A DNA stretch of 64,000 bases from Halobellus rarus (GTDB lineage: Archaea > Halobacteriota > Halobacteria > Halobacteriales > Haloferacaceae): NCBI RefSeq assembly GCF_024494595.1, contig NZ_JANHDI010000010.1:124001-188000 (forward strand), written 5' to 3'. The position numbers were made by a program, and so were the translations under genes. The notes beneath the pieces are model-generated. The model worked only from the letters and a program-made list of their open reading frames with translations, was not told the DNA's origin and made no database searches. Of the stretch, positions 33,161-62,832 are shown in pieces (within the stretch, counting starts at the first letter, position 1; each line of letters opens with the position of its first letter).

Positions 33161-33199
33161 AAAGCCAAGGGCCGGCTTTAGGGCTAAGGGTTAAAGCCC
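33161..33199. repeat. Nested inverted repeats at the left edge of the island
   Basis: AAAGCC (33161-33166) pairs with GGCTTT (33174-33179); then GGGCT (33181-33185) pairs with AGCCC within AAAGCCC (33193-33199). The four AAAGCC/GGCTTT-type half-sites, placed between the last chromosomal gene and a tyrosine recombinase, look like recombinase arm or attachment sites, or a terminator. No tRNA is next to them. Confidence 0.4.
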
Positions 33200-33223: not shown

Positions 33224-34522
33224 ATGGGGACACGAGATCAAATCGAGAACCTGCAAAAACGAATCAAGAAACGTTCAGGTCTGGCCGATGAGCCCCCCGA
33301 AGACGAAGACGCACCAACTATCTCCGAGGACGATGCCGAGGTCCTCCTCGAGTTCAGCCGGCAACTCGACCTGCTCAGTTCGAAGTATACTGACTACAGG
33401 CATCTCAAACTTCTCCGTCACTGCGTCATTATGGCGGAGCAGGTCGGTGGGCTCGCCGAGGCGCTCGAAAGTCGAGACGCCGCCGAGGAAGTCGTCGTAT
33501 GGATCAACAGAGAGCGTGGTGTCCCCGAATACAGTGAAGAGACCAACCAAGACTATCGAGTTGCTCTCCGGATCTTCGGGAAGCGAACTCTCAAGTTGGC
33601 TGATGATGAGGTTCCGGACTCACTAGCGTGGGTTCCAACAGGTACGAGCAATTCCTACGACCCCTCTCCCAGTCGGTCCAATATGTTAGACTGGAAGGAA
33701 GCGAAGAGGATGGCCATCGAGGGGACAACCAATCACCGCGACAAGGCCCTCATCACAGTGGCTCACGAACTCGGACCGCGGGGAGAAGAAATGCACGGGG
33801 TCCGGATGAAGCAAGTGAATGACGCGGATCACGGGATCCAGATCAGTCTCGATGGGAAGCAGGGGGAACATTCGGTCACGCTAATCAACAGCGTCCCCTA
33901 CTTACAGCAGTGGCTCAGCGAACATCCTGCTCCAGACGATGACGAGGCATACCTCTGGTGTAACCTGGACGATCCCCACGATAACGCGAGCTATCAGACG
34001 TTCCTCGGTCGGTTCAAAGAGGCAGGACGTCGAGTCGAGATGGACAAGCCCGTCACGCCTACGAACTTCCGAAAGTCGAACACGTACTGGCTCGCCAAAC
34101 AGGGCGCAAATGAGTCATTCATCAACGAGCGTCAGGGCAGAAAGGCGACTTCTGACCACGCTCGACGGTATATCGCAGAGTTCGGACCGGAAAACGAGAA
34201 CAATCAGTACGCGGAACTTCAGGGGCTCGAAGTACAAACAGCGAAGACGGAAGATCGGACTCCGCTCACGTGCCCTCGGTGTGATAAGCAGACCCCACGT
34301 GACGAACCGTTCTGCGTCTGGTGTCACCAAGCGATGGAGCCCGAGGCGGTACAGGAACTCGAAGAGCGAGAGGATGAACAGCGGCGAAAGCTACTCCGGA
34401 TTGCCCAAGATAATCCGGAACTCCTCCAAACACTTGAAGAGATGGAACCGCTGATTGAAGCACTTGGTGGTGATGCAGAACTGATCGATGCAGCAGCGAG
34501 CTTTACCGAAGCAGTCGAGTGA
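33224..34522 (+). CDS. Tyrosine recombinase / integrase with C-terminal zinc ribbon
   Basis: A 432-residue site-specific recombinase. The N-terminal SAM-like DNA-binding domain runs to about residue 150. The catalytic domain carries the first Arg in ELGPRGEE (about 184), the second in TPTNFRKSN (about 282) where the usual His of HxxR is Asn, and the Tyr nucleophile in ARRYIAEF (about 315). After it comes a zinc ribbon (CPRCD, CVWCHQ) and an acidic coiled tail. It probably moves the island or a relic of it. It starts at ATG 33224; a TATA-like AATATAAAC only 5 nt upstream is oddly close to the start. Confidence 0.85.
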   Translation: MGTRDQIENLQKRIKKRSGLADEPPEDEDAPTISEDDAEVLLEFSRQLDLLSSKYTDYRHLKLLRHCVIMAEQVGGLAEALESRDAAEEVVVWINRERGVPEYSEETNQDYRVALRIFGKRTLKLADDEVPDSLAWVPTGTSNSYDPSPSRSNMLDWKEAKRMAIEGTTNHRDKALITVAHELGPRGEEMHGVRMKQVNDADHGIQISLDGKQGEHSVTLINSVPYLQQWLSEHPAPDDDEAYLWCNLDDPHDNASYQTFLGRFKEAGRRVEMDKPVTPTNFRKSNTYWLAKQGANESFINERQGRKATSDHARRYIAEFGPENENNQYAELQGLEVQTAKTEDRTPLTCPRCDKQTPRDEPFCVWCHQAMEPEAVQELEEREDEQRRKLLRIAQDNPELLQTLEEMEPLIEALGGDAELIDAAASFTEAVE

Positions 34523-41101: not shown

Positions 41102-41320
41102 ATGCCCTTCAGAAATATAAAATACCATATGTATATCCATACAGATAGGGATACTAGATATTTCAAATCATCTATAAAACTCCGTTCCGAATCACGAGAT
41201 CAGGTTTTTCTGTCGATAGCCACCTCTCCAAAACCGCAGTACGCAGATGGATTCATATATAAAGAGGATTTTGTAGACGATTTCCACGAGTTCTACAAAA
41301 AGCCACCGCCCGCGGATTGA
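41102..41320 (+). CDS. Possible small protein of unknown function
   Basis: 72 residues from ATG 41102, a basic and aromatic-rich sequence (MPFRNIKYHMYIHTDRDTRY) ending KPPPAD. A TTG at 41096 would overlap the previous stop. It is A/T-rich like the rest of this part of the island. No family is recognised; it may be real or an artefact. Confidence 0.35.
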   Translation: MPFRNIKYHMYIHTDRDTRYFKSSIKLRSESRDQVFLSIATSPKPQYADGFIYKEDFVDDFHEFYKKPPPAD

Positions 41321-41445
41321 AACACCTGATATCAGGGATTTCAGCTGGTGAAATCTTGTGTACGGGATCAGATCCAGCAAAAGAGTGTAGACGGGTTTTG
41401 GCCCGGTATTCGACTAACAATAAGAAAACAAAGAATAACAGAAAT

Positions 41446-41580
41446 ATGGTAATTTGGCGTAGGAAGCTGGTGGATGAAGGCAAAGTGGGGATGTCCACAT
41501 CACGTGAGACAGACCAAGAGAACAACCTGCAAGGCTGCGATATTGAATCCCTCAAGCGGATGGACGAGGTTAGCCAATGA
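41446..41580 (+). CDS. 44-residue peptide leading the recombinase operon
   Basis: ATG 41446 starts MVIWRRKLVDEGKVGMSTSR; the frame ends in TGA overlapping the ATG of the recombinase (ATGA), so translation is coupled. An A/T-rich promoter (AACAATAAGAAAACAAAG) lies just upstream. Small basic or mixed-charge proteins in this place can be recombination directionality factors, but nothing in the sequence proves it. Confidence 0.5.
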   Translation: MVIWRRKLVDEGKVGMSTSRETDQENNLQGCDIESLKRMDEVSQ

Positions 41581-42257
41581 CGGGTCGAGGCTTCAAGCCA
41601 CTGAGCCTTGATGAGATCCAGGTCTTCGAGGCGGCAGCGAAAGACGCAACCAACCCGATCCGAACGCTAACTGCTCGTCTCCTACTGCATACAGGGATGC
41701 GTAATGGTGAGTTCAATCATATGCGTCCCTGGTGGGTCCTCGAGAAAAATGGAAAATACCGAATCGACATTCCGCGACGAGAGGACTGTGTCGGCGGTGC
41801 CGGCCCAGCAGGATTCGGCAATCAGAATCACTTCAACTTGAACGACAGGGGGGAGCCTTGCTCGAAGTGCCGAAACAAATCACATCGTGAGGACAATCGG
41901 TGGACCTGCAAGACTCGGTCCTCTGACCGAACCATCCCCATTAACAGCAAGCAAGAGGATCTGGTTGACCTCCTCAAGTGGTGGAAGAACGGCTACGACT
42001 ATATGCCGCTTTCACACCGCTCGGTCAACTACCATCTCAAACAGCTCGCTGATGCGGCTGGTCTAAATCGGAAGGTAACGGCCCACGACCTTCGGCATAC
42101 ACATGGCACGATGCTAGCTCGAATGGACTGGACTGCGGTTCAGATAATGGACCGGCTCGGTCACGGATCTATCCAGATGCCCCGGAAGTACATCACGTAT
42201 ACCGCGCAGGCATCGCGTGACCTAGTCGAAAAGAAATACAACCTAGACAGTCTATGA
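41577..42257 (+). CDS. Tyrosine recombinase, intact catalytic set
   Basis: A 226-residue recombinase lacking the usual long N-terminal core-binding domain. All catalytic residues are in place: Arg in HTGMRNGEF (about 42), HxxR in AHDLRHTHGT (about 169), the second His in RLGHGSI, and Tyr in RKYITYT (about 207). In the middle, CSKC and a later C with His may bind zinc. It overlaps the 44-residue frame upstream and the next recombinase-like gene by 4 nt. Confidence 0.85.
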   Translation: MTGRGFKPLSLDEIQVFEAAAKDATNPIRTLTARLLLHTGMRNGEFNHMRPWWVLEKNGKYRIDIPRREDCVGGAGPAGFGNQNHFNLNDRGEPCSKCRNKSHREDNRWTCKTRSSDRTIPINSKQEDLVDLLKWWKNGYDYMPLSHRSVNYHLKQLADAAGLNRKVTAHDLRHTHGTMLARMDWTAVQIMDRLGHGSIQMPRKYITYTAQASRDLVEKKYNLDSL

Positions 42258-43162
42258 ATGGCGATCCGCTCACGCAAGAGCAGACAATTACGTTTCAGAA
42301 GGCGGCGAAAAGCGGAGATTTCGTCGACCGGTTGCTAGGGGTATTGCTCCATACCGGTTTGACTGCGACAGAGTTCACGCATATGCATGACAACTGGCTA
42401 GATCCGCTTCCAGAGTCAATTGAAGCGTGTGAGGATACCGTCCCGATAATTCGGATCCCATCGGAAGCAACCTGTCGTAAACTCAAGCTGGGAGTGAATT
42501 TGGAAATTCATCAGCGGACAGGCCGGTGTGGATACTGTAAGGATATTGGGTACGAGAAGTGGTTCCCTGGACAGCCAGATAGCGATTGTCGCGTTCGGAA
42601 CGTCCCAGTACCCGATGAAGATACGGCACGAACGCTATACTGGTGGTTTTCGAGGTATAGTTCGACGCCGATCAGCGTGAACAGTCTCAAAAATCGGCTA
42701 TCGAAGTTGGCGGAACGGGCTGGTCTAGGGCGAAATATCACACCCCGAGATATGCGAGCAACATATGGGACGAATCTCGTCCGGATGGAATTCTCTTCAA
42801 GAGAGGTTGCAGAACTAATGGGGTTATCTACTCACCTACTGACTCGCGAATTCTTCGAAGCAGCAGGTAGGCCCGTCGACTGGCCCGAAAACAAATCTGA
42901 TTCGACGATCTTGGCGGCTATCGCCGAAAATGAGCCAGTGATAAAAACAGAGATCGGTGGATTAGTTGGTATTCACAAAAGCGCGGGAACGAAACGCGCG
43001 AGCGACCTTATTGATCGAGGCTTGGTAGTCAAGGTTGGAGAACGGCAGGGCAAAGTTGAGCGTCTAACAACATACGGAGTTAACCCAGAGATGCTCGAGG
43101 AAGAAGGGTTCGACGAACTCGTAGATCGCTGCTCCAGCGATGGAGAGAAGAGTTATGAGTAG
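42254..43162 (+). CDS. Degenerate recombinase fused to a winged helix
   Basis: A 302-residue paralogue of the preceding protein with the same fold but lost catalysis: the first Arg site reads HTGLTATEF, HxxR reads PRDMRATYG, the second His site reads LMGLSTH, and the Tyr site reads TREFFEAA. Zinc-like CGYC is kept. After residue 210 it gains a winged-helix domain (VIKTEIGGLVGIHKSAGTKR, LVVKVGERQGKVERL). A DNA-binding partner or regulator of the active enzyme is the likely role. Overlap of 4 nt upstream, 8 nt downstream. Confidence 0.8.
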   Translation: MNGDPLTQEQTITFQKAAKSGDFVDRLLGVLLHTGLTATEFTHMHDNWLDPLPESIEACEDTVPIIRIPSEATCRKLKLGVNLEIHQRTGRCGYCKDIGYEKWFPGQPDSDCRVRNVPVPDEDTARTLYWWFSRYSSTPISVNSLKNRLSKLAERAGLGRNITPRDMRATYGTNLVRMEFSSREVAELMGLSTHLLTREFFEAAGRPVDWPENKSDSTILAAIAENEPVIKTEIGGLVGIHKSAGTKRASDLIDRGLVVKVGERQGKVERLTTYGVNPEMLEEEGFDELVDRCSSDGEKSYE

Positions 43163-43682
43163 CGAAACGCCGTCCCTCACAGAATTAGAAGGGCAGTTGA
43201 AAGCGCTTCAGCAGGGGCACAATAATGCCTGGGACGCAATTGAAGACCTGCAAGATCAGATGCAGGAGATAAGAGCGGAGCAACGTCGCATACAGGAGGG
43301 TCAGACTGATCTTCAGGCCTCGATAGAGCAGATCGACACGAGAACAGATCTTCTCCGGCTCGTCGAGAGTAGCGATGAGATGAGTGGAAAGCAACGATCA
43401 GTCGCATTGATCCAACATCTCCGACGAGCGGCAATGCGAGAACGCGAGCGCGGTCGCACAGCGAAGGCGTCGCTCAACCGAGAAGAAGCCGAGCGCGCAC
43501 TACAGTATCCAGCTATTGACCGGACAACGGTTTACACCGATATGGATCGCGCAGAGCGTCTCGTCGGAGATAGAGACGTTCTCTGGTATGAGAGCAACTC
43601 GAGTGGACGTAGTCGGCTGAAGCTGAATCTTGAGGCCGGTGACCTCCCTACAGAAGTCGTCGGGCAACACGGAGGTCGATGA
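43155..43682 (+). CDS. Coiled-coil protein with C-terminal winged helix
   Basis: 175 residues. Residues about 5-75 are a long coiled coil (TELEGQLKALQQGHNNAWDA, LQDQMQEIRAEQRRIQEGQT). The C-terminal part holds a helix-turn-helix-like segment (LNREEAERALQYPAIDRTTV, YTDMDRAERL) and a basic wing. The ATG at 43155 overlaps the recombinase paralogue's stop region by 8 nt, so it completes a four-gene operon. It may bridge recombinase and DNA. Confidence 0.65.
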   Translation: MSSETPSLTELEGQLKALQQGHNNAWDAIEDLQDQMQEIRAEQRRIQEGQTDLQASIEQIDTRTDLLRLVESSDEMSGKQRSVALIQHLRRAAMRERERGRTAKASLNREEAERALQYPAIDRTTVYTDMDRAERLVGDRDVLWYESNSSGRSRLKLNLEAGDLPTEVVGQHGGR

Positions 43683-43899: not shown

Positions 43900-45930
43900 A
43901 TGCCCATCACACAAGAGCTCACGGACGAACTGATACAATTCCTCCGAGATTACTACTGGGAGGAAATTGGAACACTCGCCATACGCTTCCCTCGCGATCA
44001 GAAGTCGTTGTATGTCGACTACGGAGATGTGTATCGATTTGACCCAGATGTCGCGAAGGATCTACGTGAGCAACCGGAGCGTATGCTCGAATGCTTTAAC
44101 GAAGCGCTTCGATATTGTGATCTTCCTGTCGACGTCGACCTCACAGGCGCGCACGTACGTATCCATAATCTCCCCGACTCACTGGATGTCGAACAAGTCT
44201 CACGACATCGGAATATCGGGACAATGCTGGATATTCGCGGGCAAGTCCAGAAGGTAAGTGCAGTAAAACCCCGAATCCAGACCGCTGTCTTCGAATGCCA
44301 ACGCTGTGGAACCCAAACAGAGATCCCACAAGTTGGCGACCAGTTAGCAGAGCCTCACGAGTGTTCAGGATGTGAACGACAAGGGCCATTCGTGCTGGTT
44401 GATACAGCAAGCGAGTGGGTTGACCACCAGTATGCTCGTATACAACAACCGCCAGAACGAACCAATGGCGGAGAAGGGGAAACGATCGACGTCCACCTTG
44501 AGGATGATCTGATCCGAGAATTCGAGGCAGGTGATCGAATTACCCTGACTGGCGTACTGGATATCGAAACTGCGACTGAGAAACAGTCACGGTCGTTTGA
44601 CACGACTGTCGACGCTCAGGCGGTCGTTCGTGAGGAGAGCGATTATGAAGACATCGACGTCGAAAACTACCACGAGGAGATCGCTGCCATCGCGAGTGGC
44701 GAGAAAGGCGATCCGTACGAATTACTTGTCGATTCGATCAATCCAGAGCACAAAGGAGACGAGGATATCAAACTCGCTATCGGTCTCCAAATGTTCGGTG
44801 GCTGGTCTCGTGGCGGCCGAGCGCGTGGAGATTCTCATATTCTCTTGTTGGGTGATCCTGGCTGCGGGAAGTCGACATTCCTCCAAGCAGTTGATAAGCT
44901 AGCCCCACGGTCAACATACGCATCTGGAAAAGGAGCAACAGCAGCGGGCATTACGGCTGCTGCAGTGGCCGATGACTTTGGTGACTCCGAGTGGGGACTT
45001 GAAGCCGGAGCACTCGTCTTAGCCGATGGAGGGATCGCCTGCCTCGATGAGATCGATAAAGTTCCAGAGAAGGCGGTCTCCTCAATGCACGACGCTCTTG
45101 AGAGCCAGAAAGTCCGAGTCAACAAGGCAGGCATCAACGCGACGCTAAATTCACGGACGGCGCTGCTTGCTGCAGGAAATCCATCAGAGGGTCGGTTTGA
45201 CCCGTTCCAATCCAGAGCTCAGCAGATCGATCTGGGGCCTACGTTGATGAGCCGATTCGATCTGATGTTTATGGTCTCTGATTCGCCGGATTTGGCCGAT
45301 GATCGAGAGGTGATCGACCATATGATTCGCTCACGGCGGGCAGCAGCAAAACAAGAACTCGGAGACGAACTAACCGAAGAAGAACGACAGAGCGTCGAGC
45401 CAGCAATTCCGGCGGAGACGCTTCGAGCGTATGTCGCGTATGCGAAAGAGGAGGTAACACCGTATCTCCCCGAAACGAACAGTGATGCGCGGGAGTATCT
45501 CCGTGAAGAGTTTCTAAAGCTCCGACTGGCTAACGAGGAAGACCAAGAGAATCCGGTTCCAGTAACGTTTCGACAGGAGGAGGCAATCGAGCGGCTAGCA
45601 GAAGCTTCTGCACGGGTTCGTCTCGATGATAACGTTTCGAAAGACGATATCGAGCGAGCCCTAACCCTCGTTAGAACGTCGATGAAACAAGTTGGGATTG
45701 ACCCTGAGACGGGGTCATTCGATGCAGATGTAATCGAGACAGGACAGTCGCAGAGTCAACGGACACGGCGAAAGCGGATTCTCGCCATTATCGAGGACCA
45801 ACAGGAGATCACGGTTGCAGAGATAGCCGACATCATAGATGAGGAAGAGACGAAGATCAAAAACGACATTCAATCGCTGAAAAATCGGGGCCAGGTATAC
45901 GAACTACAGGGCCAGCTCAGGGCAACCTAG
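43900..45930 (+). CDS. mcm: MCM replicative helicase (element-encoded)
   Basis: 676 residues with standard MCM architecture. The N-terminal domain holds a zinc knuckle (CQRCG, CSGC; about 137-163). The AAA+ core has Walker A GDPGCGKST (about 316-324), Walker B IACLDEID (about 380), sensor AAGNPSEGRFD and Arg finger SRFDLMF (about 450). A C-terminal winged helix reads EITVAEIADIIDEEETKIKN. Start at ATG 43900, right after the palindrome. Mobile haloarchaeal elements often carry their own MCM; this would open the element's origin. Confidence 0.93.
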   Translation: MPITQELTDELIQFLRDYYWEEIGTLAIRFPRDQKSLYVDYGDVYRFDPDVAKDLREQPERMLECFNEALRYCDLPVDVDLTGAHVRIHNLPDSLDVEQVSRHRNIGTMLDIRGQVQKVSAVKPRIQTAVFECQRCGTQTEIPQVGDQLAEPHECSGCERQGPFVLVDTASEWVDHQYARIQQPPERTNGGEGETIDVHLEDDLIREFEAGDRITLTGVLDIETATEKQSRSFDTTVDAQAVVREESDYEDIDVENYHEEIAAIASGEKGDPYELLVDSINPEHKGDEDIKLAIGLQMFGGWSRGGRARGDSHILLLGDPGCGKSTFLQAVDKLAPRSTYASGKGATAAGITAAAVADDFGDSEWGLEAGALVLADGGIACLDEIDKVPEKAVSSMHDALESQKVRVNKAGINATLNSRTALLAAGNPSEGRFDPFQSRAQQIDLGPTLMSRFDLMFMVSDSPDLADDREVIDHMIRSRRAAAKQELGDELTEEERQSVEPAIPAETLRAYVAYAKEEVTPYLPETNSDAREYLREEFLKLRLANEEDQENPVPVTFRQEEAIERLAEASARVRLDDNVSKDDIERALTLVRTSMKQVGIDPETGSFDADVIETGQSQSQRTRRKRILAIIEDQQEITVAEIADIIDEEETKIKNDIQSLKNRGQVYELQGQLRAT

Positions 45931-46019: not shown

Positions 46020-46787
46020 ATGACATCAAAAATAGCAATAAGCAATCAGAAAGGCGGTGTAGGGAAGACAACTGTCGCGATCAACGTTGCGGGAGCGCTT
46101 GCCAATCGTGGCCACGAAGTACTGCTCGCCGATTTGGATCCCCAAGGTCACGCAACCGAGGGAGTAGGATTAGCAGACACGTATGATTCCGCCAAACCAC
46201 ACTTCGGAAGCGTTCTCGAGACGATCGACGAAAATCGAACAGTTGCGGAGATTGTCTATTCACACGAAGCGTTTGATGTCATTCCCTCAAACGTCGATAT
46301 GTTCACGCTTGAAACGGATCTGACGGGTGCGATGCGATCTCGGGAACGACTGGAATTACTCTTCGATAATCTCGATCACGACTACGATTTCATAATCGTC
46401 GACTGTCCACCCTCGTTGGGGCATCTCACCGATAATGCGCTACTCGCCTGCCAAAACGTGTTGATCCCAGCGCTTGCAGAAGGAACCTCCATTCGTGCGC
46501 TTGAGATTCTGTATGACCAAATAGAATCAATCGAACGGGGCTACGACGTCCAGATTACCCAACTTGGACTCGTGGCGAATCGCGTGGAACACGATGGGGA
46601 GGCAAAGGAAATGATGGAGTGGTTTGAAGATACATTTGAAGGACAGCTTCCTGTCTGGGAGGTTCGAAAGCGCGTCGCATTAAAGCGAGCGTGGAACAAC
46701 GGTGTTTCTATCTTTGAACACGAGGAAGAATCCGATATGGAATCCGTATTTACTGCCGTTGCGACACATTTGGAGGGGACAGTATGA
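46020..46787 (+). CDS. parA: ParA/Soj family partition ATPase
   Basis: 255 residues. The deviant Walker A is KGGVGKTT near residue 10, Walker A' is LADLDPQGHATEG, and Walker B is FIIVDCPPS, the ParA signature. The C-terminus is acidic. Starts MTSKIAISNQKGGVGKTT. It moves and segregates element DNA. It overlaps the next gene by 4 nt. Confidence 0.93.
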   Translation: MTSKIAISNQKGGVGKTTVAINVAGALANRGHEVLLADLDPQGHATEGVGLADTYDSAKPHFGSVLETIDENRTVAEIVYSHEAFDVIPSNVDMFTLETDLTGAMRSRERLELLFDNLDHDYDFIIVDCPPSLGHLTDNALLACQNVLIPALAEGTSIRALEILYDQIESIERGYDVQITQLGLVANRVEHDGEAKEMMEWFEDTFEGQLPVWEVRKRVALKRAWNNGVSIFEHEEESDMESVFTAVATHLEGTV

Positions 46788-47145: not shown

Positions 47146-50052
47146 TTAGACAGGAAGCGTAAGGCATAGTCCTTCGACAGAGGGAGCTAACGAGATTACC
47201 TGTGCCTTCCGATGGAGTTCTGCTCGCCGATCCTCAATTCGTTGTTCGAGTTTAGAGAGTCGCTCTCGCTGACCCCGAATTGCGATGTCCATATTGGAAC
47301 CGGCCTCGGCCTTCCGCTCGTACTCGTCGATGAACTCCTCGATTCGTTGCCGCTCAGCATCGGCGTATTCCTCGAGGTCATCGAGCTCTTGTTGCGTCTC
47401 TCTTCTGCGACGCTCGTGGAGATCTTCTCGAAGCGACTCGACGTGCTTGCTAACGTAGCTATCCGCAGCTTCGCGTAACTGCGGCTGTTCCTGAATGAGC
47501 GATCGAACACTTTCCGCATCCGGCGTTCCCTTGATGCTATCGCCCTGTATGACGCGTTCTCCCAGTCGATGCCGTGGATCGTGGTGGTTTCGGTCAACGA
47601 AGACCGGGAGCAACTCTTCGCGGATGACTTCGCCAGTCCCGTCTTCGAACCCTACCCGGTACGTGTAGGTGAGTCCAGGCTCGTCGACGAACGGGAGGAG
47701 CTTCAAACCGACATTGCCGTTCTCGGTCGCGAGGACGTGTTCCATCAGTCGCTGGACGAGGTCGGCATCGGGAGAGACGTAATCAATCCCCTCGTGATCC
47801 ATCGCGAATTCCCGGCTGAACGTGAATGGTCCATATTCCTCGTCCGTGCCGTCGTAGAGCGGTTCAGGAAGCGTTGCTCGATAGAGGTTCGTTCCTGCCT
47901 TTTCAACGTCACCACCGAGCGTCTCGACGCCACGTTCGACGAACTCATGGATGTCTCCCTCGCTGCCATAGACATCCTCGGAGTCATCCATTACCTCCTG
48001 AATCTTCTCGCGACTCTCTTGATCGAACGTACTCGTATCGATGAGACTTCGCTCGTACCACTCCTGAAGCGTCTGTTGGCGCTCGTCGATGAGGTCTTCG
48101 AGTTCCTCCTTGGTTGCACTCGGAGGCTCCTCGTTCCGAATGGATCGCATAATGAGCGAGTCCATATTGATGTCGTCGAGCATCCCGAGGACATCGGCAG
48201 TGTTGCCGAGTTGGCCGCGAATGCTCTCAACTTTGCTCTGGAGCATCTCAAAAATCTCTCCCTCTCGAGTGTCCTCGAACGAGAAGTTCCAGACCTTGAC
48301 TTCCTTGTCTTGCCCGTAACGGTGGATGCGCCCGATCCGTTGTTCGAGACGGTTCGGATTCCACGGCAACTCGTAGTTCACCATAATATGGCAGCTGTGC
48401 TGGAGGTCGATTCCTTCACTCGCCGCGTCGGTCGCAAAGAGTAGACGGGACTGGCCGTGGTTGAACTCCTCTTCGATGCGAGCACGCTCCTCCTTATCGA
48501 CGTCGCCGTGGATGACGAGAATTTCGTCAGCCCACGGTTCGTCTTTCACGAGGTCCAGAAGATACTCGAGGGTATCGCGGTACTCGGTAAACAGTAGTAC
48601 CTTCTCGTCGGGCTGTTCCTCCAGGAGCTGTTGGATGTACCTACGAACTTTCTGGGCTTTCGAGTCGACAGGAATGCCTTCGGCGAGTTCGACGAGATCC
48701 CGAAGCGTTTCGATCTCCTCTTCGAGTTGGGCGTCGCTTTCGGTGACGGTCAACCCAGCGAGTTCTTCTTCGGCGTGCTGTTTGTCGTCTTCGTCGAGGT
48801 CTTCACCGTCAAGATACGCAGCCGCTTCTTCCGAAAGATCCGTCCCCGTCGACTGTTCGTCAACGAGATCTCGCAATCGACGACTCAACGTCGCCTGAAT
48901 CGCTCCGATACTACTGACGAGCCGTTTTTGCATAAGCGCCATCGCGAAGCCGACTGCAGGCTCGTTTAGCTGCTCGGAGCGGTTGTAGACGTGTTTCACG
49001 TAATCGGTGACGGCGCGGTAGAACTGGCGCTCCTCGTGGCTCATCTCGATGCCGACCGTCCGGACATCTCGGTCAGGGAAGATGCGCTCGCCGTCGTCGT
49101 CATAGATCGTCTGTTTGCCACGGCGGATCATCACTCGATCGACGGCGTCCGTCGAGAGGTCGCGATCCTCCGCGACGAGGAACGGGTCGATATACTCGAC
49201 GAGCGAGCGGAATGCCTCGCCCTTGCCGTCGTGGGGCGTCGCGCTGAGTAACAACAACGAATCGGAGTTGCCCGTGACCCGCTCGACCATCTTCGACGTC
49301 TGGCTCGGGGATTCACCACGCTTGGCGGCCTTGTGTGCCTCGTCGACGACGACAACATCCCAGAACGAATCCTCGAGTGCGGGCTGGAATTCGTCCTGCC
49401 GGAGAAAGGCCATACTCGTCACCATCCGTTGGTGGTCTTGATCCCAGATATTCGCCGCATCTCCCAGACGGCGTCGCTCGCCTTCGACCCACTCTCTGTC
49501 CGCCGGCGTGAGGTCGATGTCGAAGAAGCGGTCCATATCTCGGATCCACTTTTTCTGAAGGTGGGCCGGGACGACAAACAGCACGCGATCGGCACGATTT
49601 CGGGCGGAGAGTTCTTTGAGAACTAGTCCGGCTTCGATTGTCTTCCCGAGACCGACGTCGTCGGCGATGAGCGCCCGTTGACGGAGCTTTTGCATCACCC
49701 AGTTGACCGCGTCGAGTTGGTAGGGTTCGAGTCGGACTAACGAATTCGAGATGCTCAGTAGCTGGCCCTGTTCGTGCGCGATCTGGAGCTGAAGCGCTTG
49801 GGATCGGAGATCGAACCATTCGGCCGAGACGAGATCGTGGTCGGGATGGAGTTGGTCAGCTATCGACGGCTCCAACTCGGCGAGTGAATCGCGTTGCGGT
49901 TCGATTTCGACGTCATCGATACAGACCGTTTTGACGCCTTGATCCTCGACGTACGCCCGAAGGTAGTCGAGATCTCCGACCGAGTAGGTCTTGATGACCT
50001 CTGCGGCGGTTCCGTTGAGGACGATCGCATCGCCCGGATTGAACGTACTCAT
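47146..50052 (-). CDS. brxHII: SNF2-family helicase, BrxHII-like (BREX-5 / DISARM DrmD type)
   Basis: A 968-residue SNF2 DNA translocase. Motif I ADDVGLGKTIEAGL (about 130), motif II VVVDEAHKA (about 236), motif III LLLSATPHDG, motif V ATDAASEGIDLQ and motif VI EQRIGRIHRYGQ. A DUF-like C-terminal region and a coiled coil (RRRETQQELDDLEEYADAER) follow. Helicases of this shape are encoded in haloarchaeal BREX-5 loci (BrxHII) and as DrmD in DISARM. Its start overlaps the nuclease gene's stop (ATGA), so the two are translated together. Confidence 0.85.
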   Translation of the reverse strand: MSTFNPGDAIVLNGTAAEVIKTYSVGDLDYLRAYVEDQGVKTVCIDDVEIEPQRDSLAELEPSIADQLHPDHDLVSAEWFDLRSQALQLQIAHEQGQLLSISNSLVRLEPYQLDAVNWVMQKLRQRALIADDVGLGKTIEAGLVLKELSARNRADRVLFVVPAHLQKKWIRDMDRFFDIDLTPADREWVEGERRRLGDAANIWDQDHQRMVTSMAFLRQDEFQPALEDSFWDVVVVDEAHKAAKRGESPSQTSKMVERVTGNSDSLLLLSATPHDGKGEAFRSLVEYIDPFLVAEDRDLSTDAVDRVMIRRGKQTIYDDDGERIFPDRDVRTVGIEMSHEERQFYRAVTDYVKHVYNRSEQLNEPAVGFAMALMQKRLVSSIGAIQATLSRRLRDLVDEQSTGTDLSEEAAAYLDGEDLDEDDKQHAEEELAGLTVTESDAQLEEEIETLRDLVELAEGIPVDSKAQKVRRYIQQLLEEQPDEKVLLFTEYRDTLEYLLDLVKDEPWADEILVIHGDVDKEERARIEEEFNHGQSRLLFATDAASEGIDLQHSCHIMVNYELPWNPNRLEQRIGRIHRYGQDKEVKVWNFSFEDTREGEIFEMLQSKVESIRGQLGNTADVLGMLDDINMDSLIMRSIRNEEPPSATKEELEDLIDERQQTLQEWYERSLIDTSTFDQESREKIQEVMDDSEDVYGSEGDIHEFVERGVETLGGDVEKAGTNLYRATLPEPLYDGTDEEYGPFTFSREFAMDHEGIDYVSPDADLVQRLMEHVLATENGNVGLKLLPFVDEPGLTYTYRVGFEDGTGEVIREELLPVFVDRNHHDPRHRLGERVIQGDSIKGTPDAESVRSLIQEQPQLREAADSYVSKHVESLREDLHERRRRETQQELDDLEEYADAERQRIEEFIDEYERKAEAGSNMDIAIRGQRERLSKLEQRIEDRRAELHRKAQVISLAPSVEGLCLTLPV

Positions 50053-50525
50053 AGATCACTCGAGTGGGCAGATGTAGTCTCCTCATCGCGCTTGTCGGAT
50101 GGGTCCTCAGTGTTCAGTACGAGCTCGATAGCTCGTTCGAACGTATACTCCTCGAGGAGTTTAGCTCGTGCTGCGTTTGATTTACTAAGCTCGTCTCGTT
50201 GCTTCGTGTTGATCCTGAACTCCTTAGAGCCGACATCATCGTACGTCGCGTAGAATACCTCGTCGAGATCGACGATGTAGCCGGCAAAGATGTCGACCTG
50301 TCCCTCCTCGTACCGGTCTGTGAAGATCCGATATTTCCAGGGCGACTCAGTTAGCTGATTTGCTTTCTTGACCTGGACGCGAAGCAACTCGTCGTCTTTG
50401 TCAGCAACGAGGTCGTACTTGTACAGGCCGTGGGTATAGGAGACACGACAGTCCTTGCGAACGAGATCAGCCGCGACGGCGAATTCCGCTACTTCCCCAT
50501 CGACGTGGCCCGTATTACGACTCAT
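50049..50525 (-). CDS. PD-(D/E)XK nuclease-like protein in the BREX operon
   Basis: 158 residues. The core motif is visible as E in DGEVAEFAVAADLV, D in YKYDLVAD and Q-V-K in LLRVQVKKANQL, the E...D...(E/Q)xK pattern of small PD-(D/E)XK endonucleases of the group-I-intron or resolvase type. Start ATG 50525 (MSRNTGHVDGEVAE). It lies between pglZ (76 nt upstream) and the helicase (overlapping). A nuclease here would be an effector that cuts foreign DNA; the role is inferred. Confidence 0.75.
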   Translation of the reverse strand: MSRNTGHVDGEVAEFAVAADLVRKDCRVSYTHGLYKYDLVADKDDELLRVQVKKANQLTESPWKYRIFTDRYEEGQVDIFAGYIVDLDEVFYATYDDVGSKEFRINTKQRDELSKSNAARAKLLEEYTFERAIELVLNTEDPSDKRDEETTSAHSSDL

Positions 50526-50601
50526 TACTCTGTTCGCCTCCAGACGGCCAGGGATGGTAGATGAGTAGCATCATAGCTCACAGTTTGATGGGGTACTGTT
50601 G

Positions 50602-52755
50602 TTACTCCTGTGTGATCGTGACGAAATTCAAGATGAACTCTTGGGGGAGAACGCCACCGTGATAGAACCGGGCGTCGGGAAGCCCCTGGTTTCGGAACCG
50701 TTGGATCGGATCCGTGAGGGCACTGATCTCCGTGTTGTCGTCGAGATAGCCGAGGTGGGCGTTCTCGTCGAGGAGTACACCCGGTGCGTCGTCGAGGTCA
50801 GTGCCGGCGACCCAGCGTCTCGTCACTTTTGCGGCATCAGCTGGCGGATAGATGTCGTCGATGTCGACGCTCCGCGGTAGCGAGACGAATCCGTGGTCAG
50901 ACAGGATGTACGCCCGATCCCACTCGCCTTGGTCGAGTTTCTCGCAGATGATCTCCGAGATCGTCTCGATGCGGTCCGAAAACACCGATTCGAAGTCGGT
51001 GAGTTCCTCTTCACCGGTCTTATCGAGGTCGTTCCAGTAGTAGGCGACGCGGTTCGTCCAGCCCGAATCGTCGTCCTCGCTTTGCATAATGTAGCTCCAG
51101 CCATCTTCCGCGAGGAGCTTCTCTCGTCGGTAATTGGTGATTTCCCGACCATTGCGCTTGGGAACGAGTTCGCTATCCTCGAGCTCGATAGAGAAGCTGA
51201 ACTTGCTTCCCGGTGTGAGGGCCGCTTTTCCGAACTCCGTATCAGAAGGGAGCGTTCCGACCCACGGGGTCTCGTCGACTTCGAGGCTCGGGAGCTTCCG
51301 GCGGATGGATGCGGCCAGTTCGTGAGCGAGATCAAAGCGGAGCGCGTCAACGATGAACAGCGCGACGCTCTGGCCGCTCTGGAGGTGTTCTTTCTCCTGG
51401 TCGAAGAACTGATGCGCGTAGTTTTCGCCGACGAACGGGGAGCCTGCCTCGATCTGGTCGACGACCAGATCGCCGAGCTCGGTGAGGTAATCAAGATACC
51501 GCGACTCGGTCAGTGAGGTTCGTAACTCTCCGAGCGTCGCCGTCGCGGGGTGTTCCTCGTGAAGGTCAGCTTCGGGTTCGCCCGAGATGATGAGATTGTA
51601 TACGGCGTTGTCGATCTGCCACGTCCCTCGATCAACGTCGCCGTACAGATCGACGACGTCAGTCGTGTCGCCGCGTTCTTCCCACGTATCGAGTTCGTGG
51701 GCGAGCCTCGCGACTTCAGTCGCTTGTGCCCAGGTTCGAGTCCACGGAACGTCGCCGTAGGTCGTCTCGAGACGATCGTGGCGCTCAGTCGCCTGATTGA
51801 TACAGGTTTCGTACTCGCCGTTTCGGTACGTGCGCTTCCACGCGTTCCACAACTGGTGTTCAAGCGTCGCGTCGACCGGACAGTCGGCGAGTTCCCACGG
51901 GTCATCATACGTTCGGAGGACATCGTGCCAAAAGATTGCGTTCGGGTCGAGGTAGGTTCCAGCCAGCTCCGCGGCTCGGTCGCTATCGACTTTGCTCAAC
52001 AACGACTGCAGGTCCGGGCGAGAAATCCCGAGTCCCGAACTGGGCTCCGGACGGTACTCGGCTGGGAGCGCTGATTCATCGAGGCCAGCGTCGACGAGCC
52101 ACTCGGCGACCGCAAAGCGTCGAGTTCGATCGACAATCACCTCCGCGTCCGTCACGCCCTCGACCGCGGCGATACCCTCGTCAACGAGCAAGTCGCGGAT
52201 CTGAAGCAGGTCATCGTGGTCATCGGGGAGGTTCTCGGTGCCGTGTTCGAGGACGATCCTTACGGGATCATCGTTGCCGTCGAGGACAATCTTCGTCTGA
52301 AGACCTTTGAGCGAGGGGAGTCCACCGTCGCCATTGAGTTCCTGGTAGAGCGTCGTCGCGACTTGTTCGCGGTCGTCAGCCTCCTCGTAGGCGGTACGGA
52401 TGGACGCCGACTGGAGGCGGTCGTTCTCGAAACACCGTGCCGCGAGCTTGCCGATATGGGCCTCAACAACGCCGCCAGTGTTCTCGACATCCCGGAACCA
52501 ATCGACGTCGTCGCGTTTCGGCTGGGGAACGTACCAGACGGTTCGATCGCGGGGAGCATCGGTCCGGAGTTCGAGCGGGGTCTGCTCGGCCGCTCGGAAC
52601 CGACAGCCGAGTTGGTGGCTGACGTTCTCGACGATCTCCGCGAGGTGGCCACCGTCGTCCCACCAGAGGACGACCGGATCGTCGTCCTGAGCGTCGGTGA
52701 TTGCCGTCTCGATGGCGTCTCGGGCGCACTCGGGGAGGGTTTTCGTGGCGGGCAT
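50602..52755 (-). CDS. pglZ: BREX phosphatase-like protein PglZ
   Basis: 717 residues. The N-terminal half is a helical scaffold specific to PglZ. From about residue 450 comes an alkaline-phosphatase-like metal domain: ALFIVDALRFDL (about 463), LPSDTEFGKAAL, ILSDHGFVSLP (about 616) and the closing FYHGGVLPQEFILN. PglZ is a core BREX protein. I start at ATG 52755 (MPATKTLPECARDA); the frame extends 32 codons further upstream without a family-like start. An A/T-rich TATA zone lies in the spacer ahead. Confidence 0.9.
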   Translation of the reverse strand: MPATKTLPECARDAIETAITDAQDDDPVVLWWDDGGHLAEIVENVSHQLGCRFRAAEQTPLELRTDAPRDRTVWYVPQPKRDDVDWFRDVENTGGVVEAHIGKLAARCFENDRLQSASIRTAYEEADDREQVATTLYQELNGDGGLPSLKGLQTKIVLDGNDDPVRIVLEHGTENLPDDHDDLLQIRDLLVDEGIAAVEGVTDAEVIVDRTRRFAVAEWLVDAGLDESALPAEYRPEPSSGLGISRPDLQSLLSKVDSDRAAELAGTYLDPNAIFWHDVLRTYDDPWELADCPVDATLEHQLWNAWKRTYRNGEYETCINQATERHDRLETTYGDVPWTRTWAQATEVARLAHELDTWEERGDTTDVVDLYGDVDRGTWQIDNAVYNLIISGEPEADLHEEHPATATLGELRTSLTESRYLDYLTELGDLVVDQIEAGSPFVGENYAHQFFDQEKEHLQSGQSVALFIVDALRFDLAHELAASIRRKLPSLEVDETPWVGTLPSDTEFGKAALTPGSKFSFSIELEDSELVPKRNGREITNYRREKLLAEDGWSYIMQSEDDDSGWTNRVAYYWNDLDKTGEEELTDFESVFSDRIETISEIICEKLDQGEWDRAYILSDHGFVSLPRSVDIDDIYPPADAAKVTRRWVAGTDLDDAPGVLLDENAHLGYLDDNTEISALTDPIQRFRNQGLPDARFYHGGVLPQEFILNFVTITQE

Positions 52756-52996
52756 AGTTATTGCTCCCCGTCGATCAGAGGATGGTTCACTTGGAGATCT
52801 GGAATCAGCTGAGGACCCAAACGGCTCCCAATTGAAGTAGAAAACTGGCACAGAGGAGCATCACGTTCCATGTGTGGTAGATTCGTGTACTAGCAGAGCC
52901 ACACAATTGCCTTTAATGTATCTCAACAATCAGAGGCTGGGGCTACACAGACTGTGAAAACTAGGGGGCCGCTGACGTCCTTCGGAACTCGGAACA

Positions 52997-53425
52997 TCAG
53001 AATCGTCTGTGTCTCCCTGAGCTACTGCGGCGGTTAGAAAGGAGCCACTCGATGAAGGAGATCCAACTCCAAAGCCTTGCTCCGATGACGATGATCCCCG
53101 CACCAATTGCGAACATCACCAGCCCGGCGATGGGGTTAGAAAGGAACACGCTCGTTCCCGCTGCTTCGAAGACGAACCCCAGAATACCGAATAGACCAGC
53201 GGAGAGAGTGACAATAGCCAGCCCGGCGAGAGAGATGATCAGGGGATAGTTTTGGAGAACAAAGAGGAGCGTGGTAATTGAGCCATCGGCTGTAATACTC
53301 CCCGTAGATTCGGAAACCTCAGCCAGCGATTCCCCCATTATAGAAAAGGCTCCAGCGAGGAGAGCGACAGCGACGCCTTCGATATTACCGAGGAACCGAT
53401 CTCCGTATTCTTGGTCGAGAGACAT
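52997..53425 (-). CDS. Small membrane protein of unknown function
   Basis: 142 residues with about three helices (EGVAVALLAGAFSIMG, PLIISLAGLAIVTLSAGLFG, PIAGLVMFAIGAGIIVIG) and a basic Arg-rich tail. No family is recognised. It sits in the cargo between pglX and pglZ, together with a coiled-coil protein on the same strand, and may be a membrane effector; that is speculation. Confidence 0.55.
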   Translation of the reverse strand: MSLDQEYGDRFLGNIEGVAVALLAGAFSIMGESLAEVSESTGSITADGSITTLLFVLQNYPLIISLAGLAIVTLSAGLFGILGFVFEAAGTSVFLSNPIAGLVMFAIGAGIIVIGARLWSWISFIEWLLSNRRSSSGRHRRF

Positions 53426-53515
53426 TATCGTTCGAGTATTCGTTCATTTACCTTGAAACCAGCCACGGCCCGCTTCGTTGCTACACAAGCCTGTTAGCAG
53501 AGTGGATTGACTGGG

Positions 53516-53749
53516 TCATCCCCAAGTTTGGGCCTTCTCCTCTGCCCCTTCAGCTATTGATCTCGTATCCTCAAGTTCTGACCGAGCATCCTCGATCTCA
53601 TATTTCGTTTGTTCAACCTCATCTCGGATCTGGCTGATTTCACGGTAAACGAGATAGACAATCCCCCAGTCAGTTACCAAGCCCACAAACGTCAGAGAGT
53701 ACCCGAGGAGAGGATAGTCGATCCGTAGCTCAGTACCCCAGGGTGTCAT
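53516..53749 (-). CDS. Single-helix coiled-coil protein
   Basis: 77 residues: one membrane helix near the N-terminus (SLTFVGLVTDWGIVYLVYR) followed by a coiled coil (REISQIRDEVEQTKYEIEDA, SELEDTRSIAEG). Such small anchored coiled-coil proteins are common in islands and have no assigned role. Confidence 0.5.
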   Translation of the reverse strand: MTPWGTELRIDYPLLGYSLTFVGLVTDWGIVYLVYREISQIRDEVEQTKYEIEDARSELEDTRSIAEGAEEKAQTWG

Positions 53750-53968
53750 AGAAGAGTTGTCACGGTGTTTATTTCACGGTTGCACGGCTGAATCACCCGT
53801 GAGACTCTGATTGCGTATGGAGCGTCAAGGTTTCTGCCAGCTCAAAGAGGTGTCCCGATAGTCGTGCGAGATACAGGGCGCGTATCTTGCACGCGGGTCT
53901 TGACAAGACTTGGACGGGCAGAGCCGTGCGAAGCTTTCTATGACAGGCTCTGTATTTCACTCACGGCT

Positions 53969-54880
53969 ATGGACACCGAACTCAAACGCCTGATAGACGG
54001 TCTCTTCGCTGACATAGCCTGCTACAACTGCGGAACAGAATTCGTCATACAAGCAAACCGGCTCACCAGAGAGGACGACGGCCTGTACACCACCCCACAC
54101 TCCTGTCCCGGATGCGAAGCGGAGTACGAAATTACCGTAGAAAACGACAGACAGCTCCTCAGCTACGAAGCCAACCGACTCGACGAAGACGATAATCACG
54201 TGAATATGTTTTCCAGCTCACGGAAGGAATCACTCCACAGACAGACGCACCCGATGAGAGAACTCGTAGAGGGCTTCGGTGAACTCAATGTGGCACTTGC
54301 CATCCTTTGGGAGAACAGAGACCGCATCCACGACGCTTGTGACACCTTCAGAGACGAGGGATTCGACGACAAAGGAGCAGAGTTTGGCCGCCGGGTTAAC
54401 ACTGATGTCCACAACTACATAGCAAGCGCCTACACCTTCAACCAAATCCTCCAAACAATCGAACCAAACATCCCGACCGACGGCCCCGTAGAGAAAGCGA
54501 AGGAAGAATTTGAGGAAGAAGAACGGTTAATAATGGGGCTCAGAGTATACGCGCAGCACAACCTCTCACTTCCCTTCCGCTACGGCCAATTCATCGACGA
54601 GAATACGGGTAGTACAGAAATGACGTTGAGTGTAGGCTTGGAGGAAGTGAACGTCATCGAATCCGATATCGACACTTACGGGCCCGACGGATACAGAAAA
54701 GGCGCGGATCATCACTACGAGAAAGTCGAAGGCGACACAATCAACATCGAACGTCGCATCAATTTTCACTACGAGGCCGCCGAAGAACTCGTTGAAGCCA
54801 TCGGTGAACACGCCGAGGCAGAACACGGTGACGAGTTAGAAGATTACCGCGAGTCAGCGACCTACGACGCAGAACGCTGA
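53969..54880 (+). CDS. Zinc-ribbon protein of unknown function
   Basis: 303 residues. The N-terminal zinc ribbon has CYNCG near 20 and CPGCEA near 47. The remainder is helical and acidic with no motif I recognise (ELVEGFGELNVALAILWENR, FNQILQTIEPNIPTDG). The longer frame from 53864 has an implausible N-terminus, so I start at ATG 53969 (MDTELKRLIDGLF). It ends 42 nt before an IS6-type terminus. Confidence 0.6.
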   Translation: MDTELKRLIDGLFADIACYNCGTEFVIQANRLTREDDGLYTTPHSCPGCEAEYEITVENDRQLLSYEANRLDEDDNHVNMFSSSRKESLHRQTHPMRELVEGFGELNVALAILWENRDRIHDACDTFRDEGFDDKGAEFGRRVNTDVHNYIASAYTFNQILQTIEPNIPTDGPVEKAKEEFEEEERLIMGLRVYAQHNLSLPFRYGQFIDENTGSTEMTLSVGLEEVNVIESDIDTYGPDGYRKGADHHYEKVEGDTINIERRINFHYEAAEELVEAIGEHAEAEHGDELEDYRESATYDAER

Positions 54881-54922
54881 TGTGATCATCTGTATCTCGC
54901 ACGCCGATTCTATCACCTCTTA

Positions 54923-54939
54923 AGGATTTCAACAGAGCC
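54923..54939 (-). mobile_element. Solo IS6-family-like terminus (left copy)
   Basis: The minus strand reads GGCTCTGTTGAAATCCT, like the GGCACTGTTGCAAA end of IS6/IS26 elements. The element it belonged to would lie to the left, but no transposase remains. The following bases (TAAGAGGTGATAGAATC on the minus strand) partly match those next to the right copy. Confidence 0.6.
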
Positions 54940-55096
54940 GCGATGGAGATTCTTCTAATTGGTTTTCGGCTTCTCAATCCAGATCATCATTTAGATGATT
55001 TCCTGATAGTGGGGTTCGCTCTACAGGGGTCGGGGCGATCTTCCCACCGTTGTATTAACAGAGACATCCTCACTCCGTTGATGACTGGGCTGATGT

Positions 55097-55927
55097 TCAG
55101 CTGCGTAGTTCATCGTAGCCAGTCTTCACTGCGATACCGACCGCTGGGAGCAGGTAGCCCCATACGTAACCCGCCATATGTCCGTAAATCCCTCCAGGCG
55201 CAGACGGCGGAAATAGGAGTAATAAGCCGTAGAGGTACAGTACAACGGAGCCCCCAAGAAATGGTAGCCCCGGTTCAGCTAGCGTTTCGGGCGATTGAAC
55301 CAGTTGATAAGACATATACAGGAGTCCCGCAACCCCGAGCACTCCGAGGAGAATTACGGTATTATTCACTTCGCCGAGACTATAAAACGCGACGGCGAAT
55401 CCAAGTACGAACAATCCGAGTGAAACTTGTATGCAGCGCGTGTCGCCGGTCAATTCGGAGTAGTAGTATGCTATGGCGATTGGCAAGAAGCCTGTAACGG
55501 CACCGACTGTTTGTGAGAACCCGACGCTCTCGAACCGGGAAAGAATATCTGGACTATCGGAGAAAATTTGAAGAATCGTCCAACTGGCAAAGAATGGCAG
55601 AATCAGGATGTAAGCGACGAATGCGTATCGGTAGATGGCAGCGGAGCCAGATACGCGCATCAAAAGTAGGGAGGCACCGCCGAGAATCCAATAGCCAATA
55701 ATGTTTGACTGGATGTGTGAAATGTTCCGATGCGCGAGGTTTGACCCGATAATGCCGACGACAGTCGGGTTCCGTGCTTCGTATTCCAACGCCTGCTCGC
55801 TTCCGGGATACAGGTAGATTGCGATCAAAATCAACGAGGGCAACACGAAGAACAACAGTATGTCCCGAATAAGATTGGAATCGACGTTACCCCGGAACTG
55901 CTCACGGAGCGATTGGTCGTTTGCCAT
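55097..55927 (-). CDS. Rhomboid-like membrane protein
   Basis: 276 residues with about seven helices. The rhomboid layout can be traced: HIQSNIIGYWILGG (HxxxN motif, usually helix 2), VGFSQTVGAVTG where the canonical GxSG is GFSQ, and GIYGHMAGYVWGY with a His in the last helix. Ser in GFSQ and His in GHMAG could form the catalytic pair, but the altered GxSG leaves activity in doubt. The gene is bracketed exactly by IS6-type ends. Confidence 0.7.
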   Translation of the reverse strand: MANDQSLREQFRGNVDSNLIRDILLFFVLPSLILIAIYLYPGSEQALEYEARNPTVVGIIGSNLAHRNISHIQSNIIGYWILGGASLLLMRVSGSAAIYRYAFVAYILILPFFASWTILQIFSDSPDILSRFESVGFSQTVGAVTGFLPIAIAYYYSELTGDTRCIQVSLGLFVLGFAVAFYSLGEVNNTVILLGVLGVAGLLYMSYQLVQSPETLAEPGLPFLGGSVVLYLYGLLLLFPPSAPGGIYGHMAGYVWGYLLPAVGIAVKTGYDELRS

Positions 55928-55979
55928 TACAGGATATCTGACTGTCCGGTGTTAGGAATTTGCCGGTATAATATAAAGT

Positions 55980-55996
55980 GGCTCTGTTGAAATCCT
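55980..55996 (+). mobile_element. Solo IS6-family-like terminus (right copy)
   Basis: GGCTCTGTTGAAATCCT, a perfect inverted copy of 54923-54939, starting 52 nt upstream of the rhomboid-like gene. The matching far end of an element is not found to the right, so it is a relic. With the left copy it encloses 1,040 bp carrying a single gene. Confidence 0.6.
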
Positions 55997-56128
55997 CAGA
56001 AAGTGAGATGTTCTGACCCGATGGGAGTCAATACGAGGAGAGAGATACTATAGACTACTTTTTCAGTCATCCGTACACTTTATCGGGTCGAACTCTTGCT
56101 TGTAGGTATGGGGATATTCTAGCGGGTA

Positions 56129-56323
56129 GTGTTTCGTAAGCCAGATGGACGAAGGAAAGGACTCATCTTTTTGTCCTTATCGTCCATCTGCCTCATTGCG
56201 TGGGTGTACACTGGTATCGTACTCAATAGTTCCCACTTCTTCCTCTTTACTGGTCTCGCGTTTGGATTCTCTGGGTTCGCCGAATCGCTGCCTCTAGAGC
56301 GACGCGAACCGGGATCAGCATAA
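56129..56323 (+). CDS. Small two-helix membrane protein
   Basis: 64 residues from GTG 56129 (MFRKPDGRRKGLIFLSLSSI). Two helices: GLIFLSLSSICLIAWVYTGIV and HFFLFTGLAFGFSGFAES, then LPLERREPGSA. The HFFLFTGLAFGFSGFAESLP segment is a pattern I recall in many short haloarchaeal membrane proteins. It ends 48 nt before the convergent pglX stop. Confidence 0.6.
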   Translation: MFRKPDGRRKGLIFLSLSSICLIAWVYTGIVLNSSHFFLFTGLAFGFSGFAESLPLERREPGSA

Positions 56324-56370
56324 TTTTGGTGTATGATAGATCCGACAGCTCAAAATATGACGAAAAGCGG

Positions 56371-60567: not shown

Positions 60568-60690
60568 ACGAAATACTCAGTATACCTCTATCGAACCGCA
60601 GGAATGTCTTATAGGTTGGCGATAAAAGGAGTCACCGCGACTGCGTAGCGATGGTCTGAAAGTTATCTGAGTAAAACAAGTGGCCATCGT

Positions 60691-61170
60691 ATGGAATGGA
60701 TCGACGTTCTACGGACGTGGGCACCGATCATTCAGGCAGGAGCGATTATGGTCGCAGTAGGAACTGTATCATTGACCTACAGACAGGTCAAGCTCCGAAA
60801 AGAGCAAGCTACAACTCAATTTGAGGACGAGCTGGCTCGAGAATATCGAGAGTTGGCAAGGGATCTGCCGGTGAAGGCACTCTTGGGAGATGAACTAACG
60901 GAAGAGGAATTCAAAGATCAGTTTTCAGATCTCTACTACTACGTTGACCTTTCAAACGAGCAGGTGTTCTTGCGGTTTGAAGAACGAGTGAGTAAAGAGA
61001 CGTGGGAAAACTGGCAGGCAGGCATTGAGTCAAACCTAAATAGGCCTGCATTTCGAATGGCATGGAACGAGATCAAGGAACGCTCCAATAGCTTTCAAGA
61101 ACTTCGGCGATTAGAGCAGAATGACTTCCAAACAGACCCAGCAGAATGGGATCAAATAGACTCTGAATAG
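60691..61170 (+). CDS. Membrane-anchored small helical protein
   Basis: 159 residues. One N-terminal helix (IIQAGAIMVAVGTVSLTY), then a charged linker (RQVKLRKEQATTQFEDELAR) and a helical cytoplasmic domain with FSDLYYYVDLSNEQVFLRF and WENWQAGIESNLNRPAF. The pattern of one membrane helix, coiled linker and a domain with a WENW motif is common in defence islands (DUF4760-like), but I cannot name it with certainty. Divergent from pglX, convergent with kwaB. Confidence 0.6.
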   Translation: MEWIDVLRTWAPIIQAGAIMVAVGTVSLTYRQVKLRKEQATTQFEDELAREYRELARDLPVKALLGDELTEEEFKDQFSDLYYYVDLSNEQVFLRFEERVSKETWENWQAGIESNLNRPAFRMAWNEIKERSNSFQELRRLEQNDFQTDPAEWDQIDSE

Positions 61171-61212
61171 TTCACGTACGAAGAGTACTATACCGTACCG
61201 TTGATTGTATGA

Positions 61213-62789: not shown

Positions 62790-62832
62790 TATAGCCTCTT
62801 AACACTAGTAGGGCAAACATCTTCCGAAGGCA

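Follow-up and report, generated by a model that had tools for sequence, protein, structure and literature searches.

A tyrosine recombinase and its catalytically dead paralogue in haloarchaeal plasmids and plasmid-derived islands: a candidate two-subunit recombinase

The recombinase pair and its surroundings

The DNA analysed here (the window) is a stretch of 64,000 nucleotides from Halobellus rarus contig NZ_JANHDI010000010.1, and coordinates refer to it unless contig positions are given. Two recombinase genes lie in tandem on its forward strand. The first (41577..42257, +), hereafter the live copy, encodes a tyrosine recombinase of 226 residues with a CxnCxxC insertion, and the second (42254..43162, +), hereafter the dead copy, encodes a protein of 302 residues. 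An ATGA overlap of 4 nt (42254..42257, +), read directly in the sequence, probably couples the two genes translationally. The proteins are 28% identical over 210 residues (BLASTP, E 5e-21) and so are paralogues, which together with the open frames confirms the original prediction of a paralogue overlapping the first recombinase by 4 nt.

PF00589 (E 8.1e-15) is the only family to score over its cut-off in the live copy, where the match begins with the catalytic domain. The protein consists of that domain only, with neither a core-binding nor an arm-binding domain. Its active site is complete (R42, K112, H170/R173, H196 and Y205), a set that within an integrase fold places it in the tyrosine recombinase superfamily and adds the lysine to the R, HxxR, H and Y already recognised. 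The alignment of eight live copies shows these residues to be invariant except at position 196, where tryptophan replaces histidine once. In the dead copy of the window, the first arginine is replaced by threonine, the lysine is lost, the first histidine of HxxR becomes arginine, the second histidine leucine and the tyrosine phenylalanine. The claim that every catalytic residue had gone is thus correct for five of the six, as the second arginine (Arg II) is retained within RDMR.

Although its active site is lost, the dead copy belongs to the recombinase fold. Residues 1–205 (42254..42868, +) align with the live copy by BLASTP, PF00589 matches at its cut-off, and the predicted model matches XerA (5hxy, E 2.7e-6). 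AlphaFold confidence for this part is mostly pLDDT 75–92 and lower around residues 51–110. The zinc-type cysteines of the C...CxxC insertion (C71, C95 and C98 in live numbering) are common to both copies, and the fold and zinc-like motif are therefore kept as had been described. The remainder of the protein (42869..43162, +) is a putative winged-helix extension, as the original prediction held: its C-terminal 95 residues score just under the curated cut-off for Pfam MarR_2 (E 1.8e-5) and are predicted to follow the order H-H-H-E-E at pLDDT below 50, a low confidence attributable to an alignment of only four rows.

The two genes flanking the pair are less closely tied to it than had been proposed. 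Downstream, a gene for a coiled-coil protein of 175 residues (43155..43682, +) overlaps the dead gene by 8 nt (43155–43162). The overlap and the long predicted helices (residues 8–73 and 78–116) agree with the earlier description of a coiled-coil winged-helix protein, but the winged helix stays putative, the C-terminal region being modelled at pLDDT below 50. On plasmids of Natrinema and Haloarcula, and in the majority of the further genomes inspected, homologues of this protein lie immediately upstream of MCM with no recombinase pair, and we therefore assign it to an MCM replication module rather than to the pair. Its candidacy as a third recombination subunit was rejected on the same grounds. 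The module continues with a plasmid-type MCM helicase (43900..45930, +; PF00493, E 4.4e-72), and a ParA-family partition ATPase follows (46020..46787, +; AAA_31, E 1.1e-44), a homologous stretch of which also lies beside the pair in genome G385. Upstream, the 44-residue peptide that had been noted does correspond to a frame at 41446–41580, but this is really the 3' part of an 87-codon frame with a TTG start (41317..41580, +) that overlaps the live gene by 4 nt. The N-terminal half of this frame resembles its counterpart in genome G099 better than does the poorly conserved 44-residue C-terminal part. With the third gene belonging to MCM and the peptide poorly conserved, the proposed four-gene machine is reduced to the two recombinases. 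A break in homology upstream of the window pair was considered as a recombination site and dropped, since it falls inside diverging small frames.

The pair lies within an island whose integrase is probably a separate recombinase. This BJ1/Humcor1-like tyrosine integrase of 432 residues (33224..34522, +; PF00589, E 7.8e-13) is 35–39% identical to haloviral integrases, and its counterparts are 93% identical in G385 and 81% identical in G099. It begins 49 bp further into the island than a 13-bp sequence, AGCCAAGGGCCGG (33163..33175), which we read as attL: this sequence is identical to the 3' ends of the tRNA-Cys genes that lie at contig positions 208747, outside the window, and 211875. None of the other 13-mers of the left border recurs in 148 kb. 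The island, integrated at tRNA-Cys, spans about 51.6 kb, from window position 33163 to contig position ~208758, beyond the window end. At the contig end (G000:C24, 206192–212159; L102, L103), about 3.1 kb including the tRNA-Cys gene is tandemly repeated, either by duplication or as an assembly artefact. The same island holds a defence island at 47146–63678 with BREX genes (BrxHII, 47146–50052; PglZ, 50602–52851; PglX, 56371–60567) and a Kiwa pair (KwaB, 61213–62220; KwaA, 62220–62789).

A homologous island in G385 shares its left part with that of the window at 85–89% DNA identity and has the same integrase and border sequence at one end. Its live copy is decayed and adjoined by an insertion sequence, and the stretch examined showed no dead copy. 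Since the island has been retained despite the decay of its live copy, the pair is dispensable for holding such an island in place and is probably not its integrase. The earlier reading of the pair as the integration machine of the island is not supported, a separate recombinase adjoining the tRNA-Cys attL.

Distribution and descent of the dead copies

The live and dead tandem was found at ten further haloarchaeal loci, 11 with the window, by searching 392 genomes of the class, another 392 of the order and a plasmid collection. The ten loci are G099, G051, G345, G374, G418, G220, G006, G385 and the Halobacterium salinarum plasmids pKBTZ03_437 and pKBTZ03_58, on both of which the dead copy is labelled 'hypothetical protein'. 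The gene pair of G051 is the same as that in Haloarcula vallismortis ATCC 29715 contig 57. Pattern scans with the live alignments gave one useful locus, in Haloarcula vallismortis, and from IMG/VR only distant integrases; pattern scans of genome contigs and viral contigs using the dead protein alone returned nothing. Detailed comparisons used ten loci rather than 11, since G418 is a near-duplicate of G374.

At all ten, the dead gene starts 1–17 nt inside the end of the live gene or 2 nt past it, the frame of the dead copy is open, and the live copy has R, K, HxxR, H/W and Y. The substitution pattern in the dead copies is consistent across relatives. Arg I, the lysine and both histidines are lost in every one, the tyrosine in seven and Arg II in three, while the three cysteines, H48, W53 and P66 are retained throughout. 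Catalytic cells are kept in 10/60 cases against 149/190 for other positions conserved in live copies (Fisher p 7e-18, a guide only, as the rows are related and the value overstates their independence). A winged helix is present in most dead copies, in some of them together with a C2H2-like finger, and winged-helix families are weakly matched in those of G051, pKBTZ03_437 and pKBTZ03_58. The dead copies of G374, G345 and G220 have instead a zinc-knuckle-like tail, identified by eye, and no recognised winged helix. These three loci have in common about 175 bp of upstream DNA and both recombinase genes between unrelated flanks, which indicates that the pair travels without the third gene.

The dead copies have been kept by selection. 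When the window is compared with G099, dN/dS comes to 0.02 in the live gene, 0.145 in the dead gene and 0.12 in the third, and for the dead gene of G345 against those of G220 and G374 it is 0.08–0.11; the ratios are approximate, with dS near saturation in several comparisons (1.0–2.8), but still far from 1. Judged from these substitution rates, purifying selection is acting on the dead copies in two lineages. The seven dead copies of winged-helix type group in a single clade (bootstrap/SH-aLRT 95/92) and branch largely in the order of their live partners, part of that order lacking resolution and none of it being in conflict. The best tree places all ten dead copies on one side of a branch, including those of G374, G345 and G220, at a value (78/43) that gives no real support; a single origin of all ten is nonetheless likely. 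That the second gene is a decaying duplicate is barely credible on this evidence. It does evolve faster than the live copy (dN/dS 0.145 against 0.02), but its frame is open at 10/10 loci, its losses are selective for catalytic residues, and a domain gain is shared within a supported clade. With the tandem at 11 loci and dN/dS of about 0.08–0.15, neither relaxed selection nor frame damage is seen, and a one-off pseudogene is rejected.

Several possible relatives and neighbours of the pair were recorded in passing. In G393 (L083, 5234–8479, −) a dead-type recombinase match lies inside a very long open frame, and in G180 (L100, 2234–5197, −) a tandem of recombinase-like frames, of 251 and then 733 residues, possibly represents another version of the pair. 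A lone relative in G030 (L037, 7118–7930), with Arg I and with R for the first His of HxxR, sits between two other recombinase genes. A DUF4238-type gene is close to the pair in two unrelated elements (L082 in G418 and L133 in pKBTZ03_437). The segment beside the recombinase module differs between the otherwise 96% identical islands of G374 and G418, possibly through turnover of cargo at the site.

Proposed role of the pair

Four circular molecules carry the pair: both Halobacterium plasmids, and the contigs G345:C6 and G220:C50, which are read as circles because they end in 77-bp terminal repeats such as assemblers leave. No tyrosine recombinase match other than the pair was obtained on the Halobacterium plasmids, and the plasmids of G345 and G220 carry another tyrosine recombinase besides. 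Pairs are often near ParA, MCM or Orc1/Cdc6. Upstream of the live gene, short repeats cluster at some loci. Four of the six copies of CTGTGAA in 57 kb of G374 fall within 233 bp there, as do five of the nine copies of CCACAAG in pKBTZ03_437 (43.8 kb) within 211 bp, the latter including two inverted pairs 23–24 bp apart. Each of these two heptamers has a copy 21–26 bp ahead of the live start codon, and a clustered heptamer occupies that position in six of the seven regions analysed. The DNA before the live gene of the window itself showed no repeated heptamer. The clusters are candidate binding sites for recombination, autoregulation or both.

These features suggest that, on haloarchaeal plasmids and in islands derived from them, the pair forms a site-specific recombinase of two subunits, in which the live copy cuts, the dead copy holds the DNA and the reaction serves the plasmid form, a reading whose chances we consider about even. 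The minimal live subunit, with its intact active site, would carry out all strand cutting. The dead subunit most likely sits beside it at the recombination site, supplying the DNA binding and architecture that one-chain recombinases house in their core- and arm-binding domains. Its description as a structural subunit in the original prediction fits a conserved partner at 11 loci that is under purifying selection, mostly overlaps the live gene and has mostly added DNA-binding domains. The reaction itself, the least certain step, is probably the resolution of multimers or the joining and splitting of replicons. We favour such a role in the plasmid form over chromosomal integration of the window island because the island has its own tRNA-Cys integrase. 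A stronger version is offered tentatively: the tandem may be a split tyrosine recombinase, whose dead winged-helix paralogue became the obligate target-recognition subunit of a catalytic-only chain and has long diverged together with it.

Several other functions could be served by the same two genes, and the plasmid-form reaction is favoured over the most serious of them, integration, which we regard as possible but rather unlikely. Here the pair would be the integrase and excisionase of a smaller nested element, with the dead copy as a helper or directionality factor like Orf2 and Orf3 of SNJ2, whose integrase operon includes MarR-like and coiled-coil helpers that raise activity (PMC8371274). 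Pairs do occur in chromosomal islands as well, and the match between the 96% identical islands of G374 and G418 ends precisely where the recombinase module begins on its upstream side. Against a nested element, the window island comes with an integrase and a tRNA-Cys site of its own, G374 has another integrase-like gene near the pair, and a scan around the pairs for a further copy of the presumed core, CGATATGGTCGTG, found none, giving only weak one-mismatch 12-mers that are not relied on. On plasmids, moreover, the pair sits uninserted; an element carried by a plasmid may also be an integrative one in a latent state.

The heptamers and the added domains bear also on regulation. If the dead paralogue were mainly the transcriptional regulator of the operon, a repressor of recombinase fold binding repeats upstream of the live gene, then both the winged helix or zinc finger of most dead copies and the clustering of heptamers, with one 21–26 bp before the start codon in 6/7 regions, would be explained. 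A repressor would not, however, need the whole recombinase fold and an invariant CxnCxxC insertion for so long, nor need it overlap the live gene everywhere. We consider regulation as the main role improbable, and dual roles are possible. Less probable by far is a DNA invertase for phase variation like the annotated Int1 of PhiH1 and PhiCh1. Int1 of PhiH1, PhiCh1 and ChaoS9 is homologous to the live copy (23–28% identity) and lies within an annotated invertible segment, but has no dead partner beside it. Long inverted repeats flanking the pair, the feature of the PhiH1 Int1 invertase, were absent from the window island and the other loci scanned, and inversion was rejected accordingly.

Comparison with known systems

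The nearest functional parallels are the SNJ2 system, GinC of the GInts and Tfp, and the pair lacks those defining features of each that were tested. SNJ2 encodes IntSNJ2 with Orf2 and Orf3 (Wang et al. 2018, reviewed in PMC8371274), the MarR-like and coiled-coil helpers raising integrase activity. As far as that review describes them, the helpers are small (111 and 140 residues), are not presented as recombinase paralogues and are encoded by genes within the operon. Here the MarR-like winged helix is fused to a dead recombinase and the coiled-coil gene belongs to MCM. SNJ2-family integrases also have, by the review's description, a SAM-like domain, which the live copy does not. Among the small haloarchaeal recombinases, Int1 of PhiH1, PhiCh1 and ChaoS9 is homologous to the live copy and shares its C...CxxC insertion, but is a single gene with no dead partner, in an invertible tail-fibre segment. 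XerC and XerD are two paralogous subunits of one recombinase and act in multimer resolution; both are catalytic, whereas one subunit is dead in every copy of the pair examined. As possible equivalents of the dif-like site at which Xer resolution takes place, the pairs offered only the candidate repeats before the live gene.

Catalytically incomplete partners are known from bacteria. GinC of the GInts, which is without the first arginine, is essential for mobility, and Tfp of the strand-biased elements (SEs) is without the RHRY motif (PMC5385486, PMC10214605). The coupling of genes in an operon with an incomplete recombinase-like partner is the likeness to the present pair. GInts and SEs differ in having two further large live recombinases and a TnpC-like protein, and reports of them come from bacteria alone; a core-site-binding domain is ascribed to GinC and Tfp (PMC5385486, PMC10214605). 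The dead copy of the present pair instead retains the catalytic-domain fold, after which comes a winged helix. Elements of the GInt, SE, Tn554 and RIT kind place two to three active recombinases and a TnpC/GinD-like gene at the element end. Each pair described here has one active recombinase, and the pair lies inside the island rather than at its end. In the literature searched, outside whose scope most subscription journals lie, no description was found of an archaeal dead paralogue paired with a catalytic-only recombinase. Genes for hypothetical proteins that adjoin recombinases, as with the dead copies of the Halobacterium plasmids, merit re-inspection.

Mobile-element integrases are believed to have evolved as a simple recombinase chain gained a DNA-binding domain (PMC8138268). 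Here the added domain is carried by a separate, dead copy of the enzyme that selection has kept. Should the pair prove an obligate heteromer, it would offer a naturally occurring case of cutting by one chain and site recognition by another, and the role of a dead partner, as in GinC and Tfp, would become directly testable.
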